Shown piece by piece: positions 10,610 to 28,525 of a DNA stretch of 64,000 nt. Each line of letters begins with the position of its first letter. Positions within the stretch are counted from its first letter, which is position 1. The notes beneath the pieces are model-generated. The model was not told the DNA's origin. It saw only the letters and a program-made list of their open reading frames with translations, and made no database searches. Position numbers and translations under genes: made by a program. The DNA comes from an uncultured Pelagibacteraceae bacterium (GTDB lineage: Bacteria > Pseudomonadota > Alphaproteobacteria > Pelagibacterales > Pelagibacteraceae). The stretch spans positions 1 to 64,000 of the forward strand of contig CABYSP010000001.1 of the NCBI GenBank assembly GCA_902521675.1. The letters are read 5' to 3'.

Positions 10610-11068
10610 ATGTTTTTATCAACATACGAAAACAAATTAGACAAAAAAGGGAGAGTATCTGTGCCTGCTAGTTTTAGGTCACACTTATCAAATCTAGGCT
10701 ACAATGGTGTTATTTGTTATCCCTCTTTTAATAATTCTTCAATAGAAGCATGCTCTCAAGACAGAATTGAAAAAATTTCTTCGGCAATAGATTCTTTAAA
10801 TCCTTTTGAGGAAAAAAGGGATTATTTTGCTACATCTATTTTAGCTGAAAGTAATAATTTACAATTTGATAGTGAAGGCAGAATATTACTTCCATCTAAA
10901 TTATTAAAACATGCTAAAATTAAAAACAGCATGTTGTTTGTTGGCCAAGGTCAAACCTTTCAAATATGGGAACCAACAGCATTTGAAAAATTTAAGGTCA
11001 CAGCAAGAAAAAAAGCGAATATTAATCGAGCTAATCTTAAATGGGAGCTTCAACAAAACAAACAATAG
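10610..11068 (+). CDS. mraZ: Transcriptional regulator MraZ
   Basis: A 152-aa DNA-binding protein with two AbrB/SpoVT-like half domains: MFLSTYENKLDKKGRVSVPASFR at the start (family pattern KGRVxxPxxFR) and a second copy near residues 80-100, FDSEGRILLPSKLL. MraZ forms a ring and controls the division and cell-wall operon it heads. Length and motifs are typical. The start at 10610 is preferred over an out-of-frame ATG at 10603 and is preceded by AAAGGA (10593-10598). It lies directly behind phased TGGG boxes, so self-regulation is likely. The stop is 10 bp ahead of ftsZ, with AGGGGA (11067-11072) as the next ribosome-binding site. Confidence 0.95.
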   Translation: MFLSTYENKLDKKGRVSVPASFRSHLSNLGYNGVICYPSFNNSSIEACSQDRIEKISSAIDSLNPFEEKRDYFATSILAESNNLQFDSEGRILLPSKLLKHAKIKNSMLFVGQGQTFQIWEPTAFEKFKVTARKKANINRANLKWELQQNKQ

Positions 11069-11078
11069 GGGATAAAAG

Positions 11079-12563
11079 ATGACAATTAACTTTAAAGCAC
11101 CAGAGATAAAAGAACTTCAGCCACGATTACTAGTTTTAGGTGTTGGTGGTGCTGGTGGAAATGCAATAAACGAAATGATAGAAAACAATCTTCAGGGAGT
11201 AGAGTTTATTGCAGTAAATACTGATGCTCAAGATTTGAAGCTTAGTAAAGCAAAAACAAGAATTCAAATAGGTTTAAATTTAACAAAAGGCCTAGGAGCT
11301 GGTGCAAAACTTGATATTGGTCAAGCAGCTGCCGATGAGTCTTTAAATGAAATTGTAAACACACTTCAAGGTGCAAACATGGTTTTTATTGCAGCTGGTA
11401 TGGGTGGTGGAACAGGAACTGGTGCTGCTCACGTCATTGCGAGAGCTGCTAAAGAGTTAAATATATTAACTGTAGGTGTTGTTACTCTTCCATTTTTATA
11501 TGAAGGTCCCTCTAGAATGAGAAGAGCACAACAAGGTTTGGAAGAGTTAAGAAAACATGTTGATACTATAATTGTTATTCCAAATCAAAATCTTTTTAAA
11601 ATTGCAAACGAACAGACAACTTTTGAAGAGTCATTTAATCTTTCAAACAATGTTTTGATGCACGGTGTACAAAGTATAACAGATTTAATGGTCAGACCTG
11701 GTTTAATCAATTTAGATTTTGCTGATGTTGAAACAGTTATGGCGGCGATGGGTAAAGCTATGATGGGAACTGGTGAAGCTGAGGGCGAAGGTAGGGCTCT
11801 AAAAGCTGCTGAAATGGCAATCAGTAATCCATTAATAGATGATTATACTTTAAAAGGTGCAAAAGGTTTATTAGTAAATATTACTGGTGGTAAAGATCTT
11901 AAACTTTTTGAAGTTGATGAGGCTGTAAATAAAGTTAGGGCAGAGGTAGACCCAGAGGCAGAATTAATTATTGGAGCTATTACCGACACAGAATTAGACG
12001 GCAAAATGAGAGTTTCAATTGTTGCAACCTCATTAGATGGTCAGCAACCCGAGTCAAAATCTGTTGTAAACATGGTTCATCGAATTCAAAATCGCAACCC
12101 TGGTTACTCTGATTTTTCAAATATGGGATCCTCTCAATCCTTCAATTTTTCAAACACATCAGCCTCAAACCCAATTACACATGGTGCTAATGCTTTAAAA
12201 CTTGAAAATGAGATTATTCAAGAACAACAAACTGAAAGTTCTCATAATCAAATGTTGAATGAGGAAGTTGCTCAAAATACTAGTGTTGAAAGTCAAAGTA
12301 TAGTTGAGGACAATTCAGTTAATGAAATAGAAAAATCTTTTGCACAAGAAGCTATGGAAACTAATCATGAAGAAACTTTAGAAAGTAACTTTAATGAGGA
12401 AGCTTCTAATGATCTCAAAGAATTTGGAGTTGATTCTGATGCACCAGATTTATTTAGTTCAGAAACTGAAAGCTCAAGTTCAGATGAACTTTTATCTTCT
12501 GACCAAGTGGAAGAAGAGGATGATCTTGAGATACCAGCATTCTTGAGAAGACAAAAAAATTAA
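11079..12563 (+). CDS. ftsZ: Cell division GTPase FtsZ
   Basis: A 494-aa tubulin-like GTPase that forms the division ring. GTP-binding motifs are intact: [13 protein letters not shown] near residue 20-32, NTDAQ, and the tubulin signature GGGTGTGA at residues 109-116; the T7 synergy region is present. The globular domain ends around residue 330, followed by an acidic Ser/Glu/Asn-rich linker of about 140 residues and the conserved C-terminal peptide [12 protein letters not shown] that binds FtsA and other tethers. The odd point is position: it directly follows mraZ and precedes rsmH, whereas ftsZ usually follows ftsA at the far end of the cluster. Here it would share the MraZ-controlled promoter. 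Confidence 0.97.
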
Positions 12564-12581
12564 TGGTCTTCCAAGAAATAA

Positions 12582-13592
12582 ATGGACGCCACCATAGTAC
12601 CGAAAATGCAAAAGCATTATCCGGTACTGCTAAAAGAAATTATTAGCGTTATTTCCCCTCAACATGGTGGCACATTTATTGATTGCACCTTTGGTCAAGG
12701 TGGCTATACCAAAAAAATTTTAGATTTTAAAAATACAAATGTGATAGCTCTAGATAGAGATATAGAGAGTGCAAAAATTGCTAATCAGTTAAAAGAAAAT
12801 TTTGAAAACAGGTTTATTTTTAAAAATATTAAATTTAGTCAATTAAATAATTTAAAACTCAAAAAAGAAAACATACGAGGAATAATTTTTGATCTTGGTT
12901 ATTCTTATACTCAAATTAAAGACCCACAAAAAGGATTATCTTTTGATGCTGATGGTAAATTAAATATGCAATTGGGTTTAAATAACTATTCTGCAGAAGA
13001 TGTAATTAATAAACTTGATGAAAAAAAATTAGAAAAGATTTTTAAATTTTTTGGAGATGAAAAGGAAGCAAAATATATTGCACAAAATATCACAAAAGAG
13101 AGATCAAAAAATAAAATTGATACCAAATCTTTAGTACAAATTATTGATAAGTCAAAAAAAAGAAAAAATTTTAAAGTTCATAATGCTACCAAGGTATTTC
13201 AGGCTCTAAGAATATTTGTAAATAAAGAAATAAGTGAGCTGATTTTTGGACTTATTAATGCTGCCAAAGTTTTAAAAAAAGGTGGAGTTTTAGGTGTAGT
13301 TACTTTTCATTCGTTAGAGGATAAGATAGTAAAATATTTTTTTAAAAGTCTTTCAGAAAATAAAAGTATTTCAAGATATAGTCCCGTTTTAAAACAAGCA
13401 GATACACTATTTAATTTAATACAAAAAAAACCAATAACCCCCTCGGATGAAGAAATAAGTCTAAATCCACCATCAAGATCTGCTAAATTTAGATATGTAA
13501 TAAAAAAAACCGATTTTTACGATTTTGATACAGATATAGAGGATCAATTTAGAAATTATATTGAAGTTGAAAATTATGGAGACAAACTGTGA
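12582..13592 (+). CDS. rsmH: 16S rRNA (cytosine1402-N4)-methyltransferase RsmH (MraW)
   Basis: A 336-aa SAM-dependent enzyme that methylates N4 of C1402 in the 16S decoding centre. Visible are [10 protein letters not shown], the SAM site [15 protein letters not shown], the family signature [28 protein letters not shown] and [16 protein letters not shown], and [10 protein letters not shown] close to the end. Length is normal. The start ATG at 12582 lies 18 bp after ftsZ; a second ATG eight codons in (12606) is an alternative. The stop TGA overlaps the GTG start of ftsL by 3 bases, suggesting coupled translation. Confidence 0.96.
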
Positions 13593-15587: not shown

Positions 15588-18431
15588 ATGCTTCTAGGAA
15601 ATTATTTTTATAATATAAATAAAAATTATAAAAATTTTTCTTTCTCAGGAATTTCTTTTAATACAAATAGTATTAAAAAAAATAATATTTTTTTTGCAAT
15701 CAAAGGAAATAGTATTGATGGTAATAAATTTATAACTGAAGCAATTAAAAAAGGATCAAAAATTATTGTAACCGAAAGAAAAACAAATCCATTTAAAAAT
15801 GGAATTTTGTATATTCATACAAATAATGTAAGAAAATTATTAGCTGAAACTGCTTTTAAAATTTATAATAAAAAACCAAAAAATTTAATTGCAGTTACTG
15901 GTACAAATGGAAAATCATCAGTTGCAGATTTTTATTATCAAATATTAAGATCAAATAATAAAAAAGTTGCTTCGATTGGTACATTAGGTGTTAAATCAAA
16001 AAGTATTAATTTAAATTTATCTAATACCACTATAGATCCAATTAAATTGGCTAAAATATTAAGCAAGTTGAAAAATCAAAAAATAGAAAATGTAATTTTG
16101 GAAGCCTCAAGCCATGGGTTAAAGCAAAATAGATTAGATGGTTTAAAGTTTAATTCAGGTATATTTACTAATCTATCCCAGGATCATCTTGATTATCATA
16201 AAAATTTAAAAAACTATTTAAATGCAAAACTTTACTTATTTGAAAACCTAATCTCAAAAAGAGGAAATGTAATTATAGATAAATTAATACCTGAGTTTAA
16301 AAACATAAAAAAAATTGTAATTAATAAGAAATTAAAATTGCATACACTTAATGATCAGAAAAACAATCTAGAGCTTTTATCTCATAATTTTAAAGGAGAA
16401 GGTCAATTTCTTAGAATTAAATTAAATAGCTCAATAAGGGATATAAATTTAAATTTAATTGGAAAAATACAATTAAAAAATGTCTTAATGGCAATAATTG
16501 CTGCAAAATGTAGCGGTGTTAGTTTAAATAAAATTTTAAATATAATTGCAAAATTAAAACCAGTTGAGGGAAGGTTTGAAAAAATTGGTAAAATTAAAAA
16601 TCGATCAAAAGTAATTCTTGATTATGCTCATACGCCTGATGCTCTAAAAACGTGTCTTTTAAATCTTAGAGAGCAATTTCCTAATAAAACAATCACAGTT
16701 CTATTCGGTTGTGGGGGAAATAGGGATCAAAATAAAAGATCAAAAATGGGTAAAATAGCCAGTGATTTTGCAGACAGTATCATCCTTACAAATGACAATC
16801 CTAGATTTGAGAAACCTCAAAAAATAATAAGAGATATAAAAAAGGGAATAAAAAAAAAGAGAATTATTGAAATATCTAATAGAGCAATAGCAATAAAACA
16901 AGCCATTTATAATTTGAATTCAGGTGATATTTTGTTAGTTGCCGGGAAAGGCCATGAGAAGACCCAAGATATTGGAAATAAGAAAATTTTCTTTTCAGAT
17001 AGAAAGGTAATTCTGAAAGCTATAAAGCATAAAAATAATAGTTTATCAGATAATTTTAAATTAAATTTGGTCAAAGAAGCAGCTAAAATTAAAAAATTGC
17101 CTGCTTCCATCTCTTTAAAATCAGCAAGGATTAATTCTAAAGAAGTTAATAAAAACGATATTTTTTTTGCTATTAGAGGAAAAAAAAAAGATGGTAATAA
17201 ATATGTTGCACAATCATTCAAGAGAAAAGCATCGTTTGCTGTAGTAAACAAAATCCAAAATAACTTAAATAAAAGTCGTCAGATTAAAGTAAAAAATACT
17301 TTAAATTTCCTAACAGATATTTCAAAAATTTTTAGAAAAAGTATTGATACAAATATTATAGCTATTACAGGTAGTTGTGGCAAAACTACACTTAAAGAAT
17401 TGCTGGGCAATGTATTAAGTAAAATTTCTAAAGTAAGTATTTCTCCAAAATCTTATAACAATAAATTTGGAGTTCCTTTGAGTCTTTTTAATTTAAAACA
17501 AAATGATGAATTTGGAATTTTAGAAGTTGGAATGGATAAAAAAGGTGAAATTGATTATTTGTCTAAAATTATAAAACCAGATGTTGGTGTGATAACAAAT
17601 ATAAATTATGCACATGCTAGAAATTTCAAAAATATTAAACAGATTGCTTTGGCAAAATCTGAAATTATTAAAAATATAAAACCTTATGGTTATATTGCAT
17701 TGAATGCAGACGATAACTTTTTTCAACTGCATAAAAAAATTGCCAAAGAAAATAAAATTAATGTAGTTTCTTTTGGAATTAAAAATCAGAAATCAGACAT
17801 TAAATTAATTAATATAAAGACTTTTGGAAAAAAATTTAAAATTAATATTAGATTAAATAATAAAAAAAAGCATTTCACATTATCTAACGATTTTCAAAAC
17901 AATATATACAATACACTTTCTGCTTTAGCGGTGATTAGTATTTATAAAAATATATTTAAACTTAATGAAAATATCTTTCTCAATTTTAAAATTCCAGGGG
18001 GAAGGGGAGACCATTCTGTAGTAAAAATTGATAATAAAAAAATTAATTTAATAGATCAGAGTTATAATTCTAACCCCTTATCATTAAAATCAGCAATAAA
18101 AAATTTTGATAAAATAGATGCGAAAAAATCAAAAAAATATTTAATAATTGGTGATATGTTAGAGCTTGGTAGTCATTCTAAAAAACTCCATCAATCTATT
18201 GTTCCAATAATTAATCAAACCAAGATAGACAAGGTATTTGTTAGAGGAAAATTAGCTTCAATAATATTTGAAAATATCTCAAAAGAAAAAAAGGGTAGGA
18301 TTTTGTCGAATAAATCACAAATTATTGAGTTGATTAGAAAAGATTTAAATAATAATGATTATTTAATGATTAAAGCCTCACTTGCGACAGGATTCAATGA
18401 CATAGTAAATAATCTGAAAGGATTGCATTAA
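15588..18431 (+). CDS. murE-murF: MurE-MurF fusion: two consecutive Mur ligases in one protein
   Basis: A 947-aa bifunctional enzyme. Residues 1 to about 480 are MurE, adding meso-diaminopimelate to UDP-MurNAc-Ala-Glu: P-loop TGTNGKSS around 104-111, EASSHGL, and DNPR at 403-406, the motif that selects diaminopimelate rather than lysine. From about residue 490 the second half is MurF, adding D-Ala-D-Ala: P-loop TGSCGKTT at 594-601, LEVGMDKKGEI, and QSYNSNPLS. The two steps are consecutive in the pathway and the two genes are normally adjacent, so the fusion removes one stop/start and may allow channelling. It overlaps the mraY start by one base. The frame is continuous with no sign of error. 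Confidence 0.95.
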   Translation: MLLGNYFYNINKNYKNFSFSGISFNTNSIKKNNIFFAIKGNSIDGNKFITEAIKKGSKIIVTERKTNPFKNGILYIHTNNVRKLLAETAFKIYNKKPKNLIAVTGTNGKSSVADFYYQILRSNNKKVASIGTLGVKSKSINLNLSNTTIDPIKLAKILSKLKNQKIENVILEASSHGLKQNRLDGLKFNSGIFTNLSQDHLDYHKNLKNYLNAKLYLFENLISKRGNVIIDKLIPEFKNIKKIVINKKLKLHTLNDQKNNLELLSHNFKGEGQFLRIKLNSSIRDINLNLIGKIQLKNVLMAIIAAKCSGVSLNKILNIIAKLKPVEGRFEKIGKIKNRSKVILDYAHTPDALKTCLLNLREQFPNKTITVLFGCGGNRDQNKRSKMGKIASDFADSIILTNDNPRFEKPQKIIRDIKKGIKKKRIIEISNRAIAIKQAIYNLNSGDILLVAGKGHEKTQDIGNKKIFFSDRKVILKAIKHKNNSLSDNFKLNLVKEAAKIKKLPASISLKSARINSKEVNKNDIFFAIRGKKKDGNKYVAQSFKRKASFAVVNKIQNNLNKSRQIKVKNTLNFLTDISKIFRKSIDTNIIAITGSCGKTTLKELLGNVLSKISKVSISPKSYNNKFGVPLSLFNLKQNDEFGILEVGMDKKGEIDYLSKIIKPDVGVITNINYAHARNFKNIKQIALAKSEIIKNIKPYGYIALNADDNFFQLHKKIAKENKINVVSFGIKNQKSDIKLINIKTFGKKFKINIRLNNKKKHFTLSNDFQNNIYNTLSALAVISIYKNIFKLNENIFLNFKIPGGRGDHSVVKIDNKKINLIDQSYNSNPLSLKSAIKNFDKIDAKKSKKYLIIGDMLELGSHSKKLHQSIVPIINQTKIDKVFVRGKLASIIFENISKEKKGRILSNKSQIIELIRKDLNNNDYLMIKASLATGFNDIVNNLKGLH

Positions 18432-25280: not shown

Positions 25281-26195
25281 TTGAAAAAAAAAGTGCTTAT
25301 ACTATCAGGTGGAATTTCTAAAGAGAGATTAATTAGTCTTGATACAGGAAATCAAGTTTTTAAAGAATTAAAAAAAAATGGTTATAGAGTTAAAATTTCT
25401 GAACCAGATAATTATTTAGAAAAAAATATAAAAATATTTAAGCCTAATGTGATTTTTAATGCTTTACACGGTCAATTTGGAGAGGATGGATATATTCAAA
25501 CTATATTAGATAAGTTTAAAATTCCATATACTCATTCAGGAGCAATAGCTTCTTCCATAGCTATGGATAAGGAAATTTCAAAAAAACTATTTATTAAAAA
25601 TAAAATTAAAACCCCGAAATTTTTTACATATTCTTATGATATTACAAAATCTCATTTAATAAAAAAAATTAACAAAGAGTTAAGATTTCCAGTTGTAATA
25701 AAACCTTTGAATGAAGGTTCGAGTGTAAATGTCTACATAAGTAATAAAAAGACTTTAGATAAAATTCTTTACAAGCTTAAAGTTTATAAAAAAGTATTAA
25801 TTGAGCAATTTATTGGAGGAAGAGAAATACAAGTTGCGATCATGGGTGATAAAAAATTAGGAGCAATTGAGCTCAAACCAAAAAGAAAATTTTATGATTA
25901 CCAAGCAAAGTATGACACAAAATCTAAAACTCAACATATTATCCCTGTAGATTTGTCCAAATCTAATTTTAAAAAGATAATTGATATAGCTTATAAAGCT
26001 CATAAAATTATTGGCTGTAGAGGAGTAACCAGGTCAGATTTTAAATTTTTCAATGGAAATTTTTATTTACTAGAACTTAACACACAGCCAGGAATGACTA
26101 AATTATCATTAGTACCAGAAATAGCATTGTTCAGAGGTATAAGCTTTTTAAAATTAATAGAATGGATGTTGAAAGATGCATCAAAGAAAAAGTAA
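25281..26195 (+). CDS. ddl: D-alanine-D-alanine ligase
   Basis: A 304-aa ATP-grasp ligase that makes the D-Ala-D-Ala dipeptide used by MurF. N-terminal LSGGISKERLISLDTG, LHGQFGEDGYIQ, VIKPLNEGSSVNV (ATP site), IEQFIGGREIQVA, GCRGVTRSDF and LELNTQPGMTKLSLVPE are all typical. The start is a TTG at 25281, directly after the murB stop; it gives the expected KKKVLILSGG N-terminus and no ATG alternative fits. The 3' end overlaps ftsQ by 20 bp. The N-terminal motif has Ile-Ser where many Ddl enzymes have Val-Ser, a mild change. Confidence 0.95.
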   Translation: MKKKVLILSGGISKERLISLDTGNQVFKELKKNGYRVKISEPDNYLEKNIKIFKPNVIFNALHGQFGEDGYIQTILDKFKIPYTHSGAIASSIAMDKEISKKLFIKNKIKTPKFFTYSYDITKSHLIKKINKELRFPVVIKPLNEGSSVNVYISNKKTLDKILYKLKVYKKVLIEQFIGGREIQVAIMGDKKLGAIELKPKRKFYDYQAKYDTKSKTQHIIPVDLSKSNFKKIIDIAYKAHKIIGCRGVTRSDFKFFNGNFYLLELNTQPGMTKLSLVPEIALFRGISFLKLIEWMLKDASKKK

Positions 26196-26847
26196 AAAAA
26201 TTCTATTTTATTTTTTTTTATTAATAATTGTTTCATCAATTGGCAACAACACAATCAATAATTATAAATTTAAAAAAATTGAAAATATTAATATTTTTGG
26301 ATTAGATCAAAAAAACAATGAAATTCTTTCGAATAAGTTAAAAAATTTGAGTTTAGGAAATATTTTTTTTATTAATAAAAAAAAAATTGAAAAATTGATT
26401 AATTCGAACTCTTTAATTGAGAGCTATGTCATATTTAAAGAATATCCATCTACATTAAATATAAAAATTGATAAAACAAATTTTTTTGCAAAAATAAATA
26501 ATAATGGGAATATTTATCTTGTTGGATCAAATGGCAAATTAACACCGATTGAATCTGGTTACAATGAATTACCCTATATTTTTGGCAAACCAAAAGTTGA
26601 AGAACTTTTAAAACTTAAAAAAATTATAGATGGTTCTAAATTTTCATATAATAAATTAAAAAATATATATTTTTTTTCATCAAAAAGATGGGACTTAAAG
26701 TTTGATGATAATATTTTATTAAAACTACCAAATAATTTAACTCAAGAAACTTTAGATAATTTGTACGAGTTTTTAGAAAATTATAATGGAGAAAATTTTA
26801 ATATTGTTGATGCAAGATTAAAAAATAAGATTGTTTTAGATGAATAA
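26176..26847 (+). CDS. ftsQ: Cell division protein FtsQ
   Basis: A 223-aa bitopic membrane protein. After a short basic tail there is one membrane helix (ILFYFFLLIIVSSIG, residues about 9-24), then a POTRA-like domain beginning FKKIENINIFGLDQKNNEIL and a beta domain with STLNIKIDKTNFFAKI, YLVGSNGKLTPIE, and RRWDLKFD-like SKRWDLKFDDNILLKLP. FtsQ links early and late division proteins through FtsBL. It is shorter than typical FtsQ (about 270-300 aa). It overlaps ddl by 20 bp and the FtsA-like gene by 8 bp. Sequence conservation is low, but position and domain order make the call good. Confidence 0.9.
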   Translation: MHQRKSKKILFYFFLLIIVSSIGNNTINNYKFKKIENINIFGLDQKNNEILSNKLKNLSLGNIFFINKKKIEKLINSNSLIESYVIFKEYPSTLNIKIDKTNFFAKINNNGNIYLVGSNGKLTPIESGYNELPYIFGKPKVEELLKLKKIIDGSKFSYNKLKNIYFFSSKRWDLKFDDNILLKLPNNLTQETLDNLYEFLENYNGENFNIVDARLKNKIVLDE

Positions 26848-27541
26848 AGAGAATGAATTACAATATTATTTAAGTGTTTCCCCAAATAAATATGGAATAT
26901 ATTTGTTCGATACAAAAAATTTAATAAATTTATATAAAGAGGAGATTATCTTAAATAATGACACCAACTATCAAAATTATGATGAATTAAAAAAATTTCT
27001 TGATGACAATATATTTAAAATTGAAAAATTAAGCGGAAAATTTATAGAAAATATATTTCTTATACTTGAGGATAAAAAAATTTTTAATCTAGAAATTGGA
27101 ATTAAAAAAAAAAATTACAATGTTTCAGTGACAAAAGAATATCTAGAAAATTCACTTATTGAAGCTAAAGATTTATTTAGAGAAAGTTATCACAACCAAG
27201 AAATTATTCACATGATAATAAATAAATATTTTATGAATGGTGAGACTTATTCATTATTTGAGGAAAATATAAAAACTGATCATTTTGGTTTAGAAATTAA
27301 TTTTAAATCAATTTCAAGAAATGCTATTTATGATTTAAATAAAATTTTAGAAAAGTACCAAATTAAAATAATAAAATATTTAGATGGAAGTTATGTTAAA
27401 TCTAATTTCTCAAAGGATATAGAGTTAGCTAAGATGTCTCACAAAATTTTGAGTGGTTATAACCAAAATGAAGTTATTTTTGTTCCAAAAACTAATAAAA
27501 AATTAGCTTTTTTTGAAAAATTTTTTCAACTATTTAGCTAA
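26840..27541 (+). CDS. Short FtsA-like protein lacking the ATPase subdomains
   Basis: A 233-aa protein in the ftsA position. Residues about 10-80 align by eye with the FtsA 1A start (beta strands, then YDELKKFLDDNIFKIEKLSG and IENIFLILEDKKI, comparable to the helix and strand ahead of 1C in E. coli FtsA). Residues about 95-185 resemble the 1C/SHS2 domain: VTKEYLENSLIEAKDL, EIIHMIINKYFMNGE, a FGLEINFKSIS strand and LNKILEKYQIKIIKYL. No phosphate-1/phosphate-2 or adenosine motifs and no 2A/2B subdomains follow. The last residues (KLAFFEKFFQLFS) form an amphipathic helix like the FtsA membrane-targeting tail. Usual FtsA is about 410-430 aa. I infer an ATPase-free membrane tether or interaction module for FtsZ; homology is seen by eye only. 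Confidence 0.6.
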   Translation: MNKENELQYYLSVSPNKYGIYLFDTKNLINLYKEEIILNNDTNYQNYDELKKFLDDNIFKIEKLSGKFIENIFLILEDKKIFNLEIGIKKKNYNVSVTKEYLENSLIEAKDLFRESYHNQEIIHMIINKYFMNGETYSLFEENIKTDHFGLEINFKSISRNAIYDLNKILEKYQIKIIKYLDGSYVKSNFSKDIELAKMSHKILSGYNQNEVIFVPKTNKKLAFFEKFFQLFS

Positions 27542-27604: not shown

Positions 27605-28525
27605 ATGTCTTATTTAACTCAAAAAACAATCAAAAATAATGTTAGCTTTAGCGGGATTGCTCTTCATAGCGGACTAAGTGTAAATGTTTGTATTAAGCCT
27701 GCTGAACCTAATTTTGGAATTGTATTTAAAAGAGTTGACTTGAAAGAAAATAACATAGTTTATCCAAATTTTATGAATGTAAGTAATACATTCTTGAACA
27801 CAACAGTTGAAAATGAATTTGGAGTAAAAGTTTCAACAATAGAACATTTAATGGGAGCATTATTTGGTTTAGGAATTGATAATGCTTTAATTGAAATTGA
27901 CAATGAAGAAGTGCCAATTTTAGATGGATCAGCAAAAATATTTATTGAAAAAATATTATCTTTAGGAATTAAAGTAAGTGGCTCACCTATTAAAATAATT
28001 AAAATTAATAAAGAAGTCACTTTTTCTGATGGAGAAAGATTCATATCAATTAAACCTTCAACTTTAAATTTAGAAATAGATTTTCAATTAAAATATAAAA
28101 ATAAAGTTATTGGAGACCAAAAAAATAAAGTAAAAGTTTATGAAGACGATTTATCAGATGTTTATAATTCTAGAACATTTTGTTTATTTGAAGATATAGA
28201 AGAAATCAAAAAAAAAGGTTTAGCTAAAGGTGGTAGTTTAGAAAATGCAGTGGTTGTGAAAAATAATGAAATATTAAACCCAGAAGGATTGAGAAATAAA
28301 AAAGAATTTGTAAATCATAAAATTTTGGATTGCATAGGTGATTTATACACCAGCGGTTACAGAATTGTAGCAAGTATAACTTGTTCTCAGGGTGGTCATT
28401 ATCTTACAAATAAACTATTGAGAAAATTATTTCAAAACAAAGATAACTTTTCAATTATCGAGATAAAAGAAAAAAATCTACCGCACACTTTAATCAATAG
28501 AAACCTTCTTAGATCGATTGCATAA
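27605..28525 (+). CDS. lpxC: UDP-3-O-acyl-N-acetylglucosamine deacetylase LpxC
   Basis: A 306-aa zinc deacetylase, the committed step of lipid A synthesis. Zinc and catalytic motifs: GIALHSG near the start, STIEHLMGALFGLGIDNA (first zinc His), VPILDGSA, SRTFCLFEDIE, and NHKILDCIGDLYTSG, providing the second His and the Asp. The C-terminal GGHYLTNKLLRKL carries the catalytic His. Length is normal. It lies 63 bp after the FtsA-like gene, the largest gap in this part of the operon, so it may also have its own promoter. Its presence shows the organism makes lipid A. Confidence 0.96.
   Translation: MSYLTQKTIKNNVSFSGIALHSGLSVNVCIKPAEPNFGIVFKRVDLKENNIVYPNFMNVSNTFLNTTVENEFGVKVSTIEHLMGALFGLGIDNALIEIDNEEVPILDGSAKIFIEKILSLGIKVSGSPIKIIKINKEVTFSDGERFISIKPSTLNLEIDFQLKYKNKVIGDQKNKVKVYEDDLSDVYNSRTFCLFEDIEEIKKKGLAKGGSLENAVVVKNNEILNPEGLRNKKEFVNHKILDCIGDLYTSGYRIVASITCSQGGHYLTNKLLRKLFQNKDNFSIIEIKEKNLPHTLINRNLLRSIA

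Follow-up and report, generated by a model that had tools for sequence, protein, structure and literature searches.

The purpose of ATP binding and polymerisation by FtsA is an open question that is usually probed with mutants. FtsA assembles into a double filament in which sub-domain IC makes the lateral contacts and sub-domains IIA and IIB make the longitudinal contacts, and FtsN binds the cleft between IA and IC; PilM of the type IV pilus likewise uses an IA-IC cleft, to bind the tail of a bitopic protein (excerpt of PMC7613929). FtsN also interacts with the free 1C domain (excerpt of PMC9426451). 1C serves homodimerisation, and in E. coli and T. maritima FtsA interacts with FtsZ via the S12-S13 motifs of sub-domain 2B (excerpt of PMC4281207).

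We describe here a short form of FtsA, found in many marine bacteria of the SAR11 type, that shares with FtsA (TIGR01174; 1e4f, 4a2a, 7q6d, 7q6f and 7q6i) an IC/SHS2 domain set between two IA segments, a C-terminal amphipathic tail and a gene slot directly after ftsQ. It differs from FtsA in having no IIA, no IIB and no conserved phosphate-1 Asp and Gly, and therefore has neither the known site for the FtsZ peptide, nor a full ATP pocket, nor the known longitudinal contact. Because both the complete actin-like core (IIA plus IIB) and the nucleotide motifs are missing, we class it as a variant of FtsA and not as a member in the strict sense. Short FtsA is real, conserved and unusual, and it is a new variant of FtsA; in the titles and opening lines of abstracts of the open literature, a scope mostly outside subscription journals and preprints, we found no report of an FtsA without lobe II in SAR11, which is weak evidence of novelty. 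In many species, evolution has stripped FtsA of one whole lobe, and with it the known FtsZ site, the larger part of the ATP site and the longitudinal contacts; relatives within the genus retain this lobe. Since the two forms occupy the same gene slot in the same genus, they make natural short/long FtsA pairs for comparison.

Gene context and distribution of short ftsA

The window (the whole 64,000-nucleotide stretch of DNA that was analysed) belongs to a genome of 1.08 Mb in 41 contigs that is 80.7% complete. Between ftsQ and lpxC, both confirmed by Pfam, it carries an open reading frame for a protein of 233 amino acids, just as a sequence-only reading of the window had described for the ftsA slot (Table 1). 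The start of this gene overlaps the end of ftsQ by 8 bases, and 63 bases separate it from lpxC. The order ddl, ftsQ, short ftsA, lpxC was observed in the window and in those single-cell and metagenome loci that are long enough to show order; most of the relatives' loci (at least 80) come from assemblies of these two kinds. A scan for promoters and terminators around short ftsA gave no signal exceeding that of shuffles. At positions 15588-18431 of the window, a frame of 947 amino acids with two Mur ligase middle-domain stretches and two C-terminal-domain stretches looks like a fused MurE-MurF. PF14450 had no match in the window's genome, and most congeners have a frame of 343-360 amino acids that we read as MreB; given the incompleteness of the window's genome, the missing match may be an assembly gap.

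Table 1. Positions in the window of short ftsA, the parts of its product and the neighbouring or functionally related genes
Feature	Coordinates	Strand	Basis
ftsZ, 494 aa, between mraZ and mraW; C-terminal peptide (13 residues) kept	11079..12563	+	
ftsQ (POTRA_1 and FtsQ_DivIB_C), upstream neighbour	26176..26847	+	Pfam
short ftsA (lobe-I-only FtsA), 233 aa	26840..27541	+	ORF, predicted fold, profile and family comparison
IA first segment, residues about 7-80: three strands followed by a helix and a strand	26858..27079	+	model and alignment
IC / SHS2 domain, residues about 81-158	27080..27313	+	Pfam in relatives, PDB profile match, model
IA second segment, residues about 159-190, includes conserved Tyr185	27314..27409	+	model, hhalign, alignment
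Junction at missing lobe II, then last IA-type helix (196-204), conserved GxNxxEV	27410..27475	+	alignment and model
Linker and amphipathic membrane-targeting tail (..AFFEKFFQLFS)	27476..27538	+	alignment and model
lpxC, downstream neighbour	27605..28525	+	Pfam

With the window protein as query, 43 of 101 relatives were matched. All 43 are among the 61 genomes that, counting the window's own, represent its genus; the remaining 40 gave no match. By open frame, the matches comprise 23 intact short forms (231-237 aa) and 14 full-length FtsA proteins (377-398 aa), the latter occupying the same slot in congeners; five more are either truncated where the contig ends or broken, so that their form is not always tellable, and one is a 303-aa frame with a stop (G020). 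Identity of the short forms to the window protein goes down to 24%. Across 116 loci, the FtsA frame is short in 64 (including one that is broken, L237), long in 31 and long with a frameshift in one; in 18 the contig ends within it, and in two it was not found.

Of 397 genomes of the order that were searched with a profile of the short form, 332 had matches, and these include long forms. In the best-scoring 150 places, a selection that favours short forms and includes none from genera g5-g12 of the family, 149 frames are of at most 248 amino acids and one is long (counted by eye); some of the 149 are cut by contig ends, two have stops inside and most are unbroken. Four single-contig genomes (G102, G103, G107 and G110) gave one match each, with 7 of the 13-18 candidates per genome scored, and in each the match is a short form (233, 242, 233 and 222 aa, respectively) between ftsQ and lpxC. 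Short FtsA is widespread in the window's genus, and is not one odd gene; neither this spread nor the existence of full-length congeners was noticed in the sequence-only reading.

Homology, predicted fold and missing lobe

Queried alone, the window protein had no match in Pfam or NCBIfam. These libraries therefore cannot confirm, for a single sequence, the similarity to FtsA that had been noticed by eye; its family, by contrast, does confirm it. We aligned 24 short proteins (one, L026, cut at a contig end); not included were L017, which is cut, L027, which is broken, and L111, a long form that is broken. Nine of the 24 matched Pfam SHS2_FTSA at E<=0.1, with a best value of 1.2e-5, and in the genome search three short orthologues (G040, G034 and G008) scored above the curated cut-off of that model. 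The top match of the 24-protein profile in the PDB was FtsA (7q6d; E 0.0013, profile positions 92-190), and hhalign aligned it with 17 full-length congener FtsA proteins over residues 5-189 with a probability of 99.9 (E 1.5e-35).

An AlphaFold2 model of the short protein, built from the 24-row alignment, had a mean pLDDT of 86.8 and a pTM of 0.79; confidence was low at its start, near residues 219-221 and in the tail helix. In a Foldseek search of this model against the PDB, ranks 1-19 were all FtsA (E 1.3e-10 to 5e-7). Comparison by VIA likewise gave FtsA at ranks 1-11 (Z 12.3-14.8), where 194-203 residues were aligned at an rmsd of 3.0-4.5, residues 3-210 of the short model being spread over residues 4-392 of the FtsA chains. 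The predicted fold is thus that of FtsA lobe I by both programs, and not an unrelated one; with the Pfam matches of the family, the PDB profile and hhalign in agreement, the proposed homology to FtsA, including its IC/SHS2 domain, holds.

The next ranks in VIA went to the cytoplasmic domain of GspL/EpsL from type II secretion (Z 11.2), which is likewise small and actin-like, with 226-238 residues per listed chain, and aligned over 155 residues, fewer than with FtsA, and then to PilM, which we rejected as the closest relative by structure since its Z of at most 10.8 lies below those of FtsA. GspL/EpsL is part of a secretion system and has other subdomain content, and PilM has a full actin-like core.

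Full-length congeners are recognisable as FtsA over most of their length in the PDB profile search (E 9e-17), and all 17 matched TIGR01174 at E<=0.01, the one score given being 75.8 bits, below the curated cut-off of 175.85. The model of a full-length congener (mean pLDDT 80.2) aligned with FtsA in VIA with a Z of 30 over 333 residues. These proteins resemble the short form in their slot, in the type of their tail (GFFEKxF in most) and in a lobe I that can be aligned over residues 5-189; unlike it, they keep lobe II with its glycines and an invariant phosphate-1 Asp and Gly.

The short form has about 150 fewer amino acids than the long form, which is the size of lobe II (IIA and IIB). By the domain boundaries of FtsA, the short protein is lobe I (IA and IC) followed by the tail, with lobe II missing as one block; the alignment supports the proposal that the 2A/2B core is gone. 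The further proposal that the chain goes straight from IC to the tail stands as regards the tail, and does not stand as regards the path to it: the second IA segment and helix 196-204 are retained in between. The last aligned residue of 7q6d is 388 for the short and the long model alike. As judged from these first and last aligned residues in the two models, helix 196-204 most likely stands in for the last IA helix, which is at 348-359 in the long model.

We aligned 61 short with 25 long forms from the window's genus and compared their residues, with six outgroup loci left out. None of the nucleotide motifs of FtsA (phosphate 1, phosphate 2 and adenosine) is conserved in the short form. Phosphate-1 Asp and Gly are present in 25 of 25 long forms, and the same positions are not conserved in the 61 short forms, where the commonest residues are Phe (17) and Ser (33); the window protein has Ser at both (residues 12 and 14). 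Phosphate 2 and adenosine sit in lobe II according to the alignment, and hence are missing from short forms. The loss of the nucleotide motifs, which had been read from the window alone, is supported by the 61 short forms. By contrast, Glu62 (60/61), Lys63 (61/61), His124 (59/61) and Tyr185 (61/61) are kept in short forms, and the conserved GxNxxEV corresponds to Gly206, Asn208, Glu211 and Val212 of the window protein. The amphipathic C-terminal tail was also correctly recognised: Phe225, Phe229 and Phe232 are kept in 60-61 of the 61 short forms, and the model has a putative membrane-targeting helix at residues 224-232, with low confidence (block pLDDT 52-60). The mean hydrophobic moment of the tail is 0.56 in short forms and 0.66 in long forms.

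History of the short form

Either a single loss of lobe II was followed by transfer of the short gene, or the lobe was lost repeatedly and independently in several lineages. We built a neighbour-gene tree (ddl, murB, murC and lpxC) of 94 of the 116 loci, those with at least two of ddl, murB and lpxC, and FtsA trees of 92 loci, from which L227 (frameshifted) and L237 (broken) were also left out. In the neighbour-gene tree, short forms are scattered over several clades with long forms between them, some of the branches being weakly supported; this tree needs at least four changes of form, and a single short clade is rejected (p-AU 0.0016, quick tree), as expected from repeated loss. By contrast, a tree of FtsA lobe I, junction and tail places the short forms in one clade (SH-aLRT 99) and needs one change. 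When the junction and tail columns are removed, one short clade is accepted (p 0.72), and so is its rival (p 0.37). Repeated loss also has to accommodate a junction whose length varies by at most two residues among the 24 aligned short forms, and GxNxxEV-like residues that are common to the short forms and one group of long forms. In the FtsA tree, the short clade adjoins the long forms of G025, G030, G057 and G007 (SH-aLRT 77 for the pairing). One loss with gene transfer and repeated loss both remain compatible with the trees, and we put the latter somewhat short of even odds.

The genome G023 has a full-length FtsA (locus L226), and its neighbour genes put it among short-form genomes, the nearest branches being weakly supported. 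The FtsA of L226 groups with the long form of L187, which suggests that ftsA was exchanged in this lineage.

Division partners and proposed function

The ftsZ gene stands at the head of the division cluster (window 10610-13592), about 15 kb upstream of the ftsA slot. A similar distance, about 16 kb, separates the matches to ftsZ and ftsA on a single contig of the outgroup genome G071. Within the window's genus, the FtsZ C-terminal peptide (ten residues) is present in all 28 genomes read, of which 13 are short-form and 11 long-form, the form of the other 4 being unknown. The outgroup family is not part of this count; some of its FtsZ frames end without the peptide, and several of these lie near contig starts. 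SepF (PF04472) was matched in none of 61 genomes, the window's own included, and in 7 of 14 controls, and ZipA in none of the 61; we accordingly rejected both as a replacement anchor. The Caulobacter control was also negative for SepF and for ZipA, indicating that their absence is not special to short-form genomes. ZapA was matched in 25 of 32 genomes (24 over the cut-off) and does not discriminate. SPOR matches were found in eight of the 32, four of them over the cut-off. On reading, the eight proteins look like RlpA-type lipoproteins and a SPOR-type FtsN was not seen among them, so FtsN was set aside as the partner of IC. The FtsX_ECD model had no match in the 32 genomes, but it misses the Caulobacter control as well.

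We favour, with a probability of roughly 55%, a reading of short FtsA as a membrane-bound, nucleotide-free and non-polymerising adaptor whose retained IA-IC cleft serves late division proteins. The C-terminal amphipathic helix would place the protein on the membrane, and the IA-IC cleft and the IC surface would hold either a late division protein or another short FtsA molecule, if they act as in FtsA, where the cleft takes up the cytoplasmic tail of a bitopic protein of the division machinery and IC makes a lateral IC-IC contact. Because IIA and IIB are absent, short FtsA should be unable to build the known longitudinal filament or to enclose ATP. What favours a passive membrane-bound adaptor is that cleft, IC and tail are kept and the rest is lost. 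The family, the missing lobe, the loss of phosphate 1, the retained tail, purifying selection and the spread of the gene were computed; from them we infer membrane binding, partner binding and the absence of polymerisation and ATP binding. Cells of the SAR11 type that carry the short form may divide without a working FtsA filament. Several results count against the adaptor: FtsN, the known partner of IC, was not found among the 32 genomes; the kept FtsZ peptide, with neither SepF nor ZipA, fits a short FtsA that holds FtsZ at least as well; the constraint on the gene is moderate, and its frame is broken in G012, G207 and G405; the tail helix is modelled with low confidence; and the genomes searched for lobe II are mostly incomplete.

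A short FtsA that holds FtsZ would be, as in the sequence-only reading, a passive clip between FtsZ and the membrane, working without polymerisation or ATP control, with the FtsZ peptide docked on a new site of lobe I such as the IA-IC cleft or the face bared by the loss of lobe II. The peptide found in every genome read, 13 short-form genomes among them, is consistent with this arrangement, as are the lack of SepF and ZipA matches and the persistence, under purifying selection, of a gene with a tail in the ftsA slot. However, since different proteins bind the FtsZ C-terminal peptide in other bacteria, its conservation is no pointer to short FtsA. FzlC and FtsEX are other alphaproteobacterial FtsZ partners, and the FtsX model failed on Caulobacter too. 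The absence of SepF and ZipA is equally seen in the Caulobacter control. Furthermore, 2B, the only known docking domain for FtsZ according to the excerpt of PMC4281207, is the part that was lost; the Z-ring anchor of the sequence-only reading is only partly supported, and not in the form in which it was put, and we consider docking of FtsZ on lobe I less likely than the adaptor, of which it is the main rival.

Alternatively, short ftsA could be a remnant on its way out that is retained in the operon by chance. In G012 a frameshift within a homopolymer run breaks its frame, stops interrupt it in G207 and G405, the sequences are highly divergent, and the gene is less constrained than two of its neighbours: median dN/dS was 0.18-0.27 for short ftsA in four short groups (NG86; the pairs are not independent), where lpxC and ddl had values of 0.06-0.11 and ftsQ of 0.18-0.44. 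By contrast, the medians of long ftsA in two groups within the genus, 0.22-0.23, are close to those of the short form, a single outgroup pair giving 0.09; the 23 intact short forms hold their length of 231-237 amino acids across deep divergence; and short frames, most of them unbroken, account for nearly all of the best-scoring places, with the bias towards short forms given above. We conclude that short ftsA is under purifying selection, moderate in that it is less strict than that on lpxC or ddl, and that decay is highly improbable. Broken FtsA frames were seen in L027, L111, L170, G207 and G405, two of them in homopolymer runs, and reflect either sequencing error or real decay.

We also searched for lobe II elsewhere in the genomes, using a profile built from 17 long forms. 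The profile found six of six long-form controls (E<=5.6e-43) and had no match at E<=0.001 in 26 short-form genomes, two chance-level matches lying near 0.04. One of the 26, G012, is a single contig scored as 100% complete; the other 25, to which the window's genome belongs, are for the most part incomplete, as it is. No complete ftsA was therefore found elsewhere in the short-form genomes searched, in agreement with the loss of the 2A/2B core seen in the alignment, and a split FtsA, in which a separate gene supplies lobe II and the machine is rebuilt from two chains, is scarcely credible when the profile misses in every short-form genome, G012 included, and finds every control.

Full-length FtsA proteins of the neighbouring family f2 (L091-L100 and L248-L251; 397 aa) have altered phosphate motifs, IDIR.. 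and IDIQ.. in place of the DFG/DIG of the window's congeners, which suggests that the ATP site of these proteins may be degraded too.
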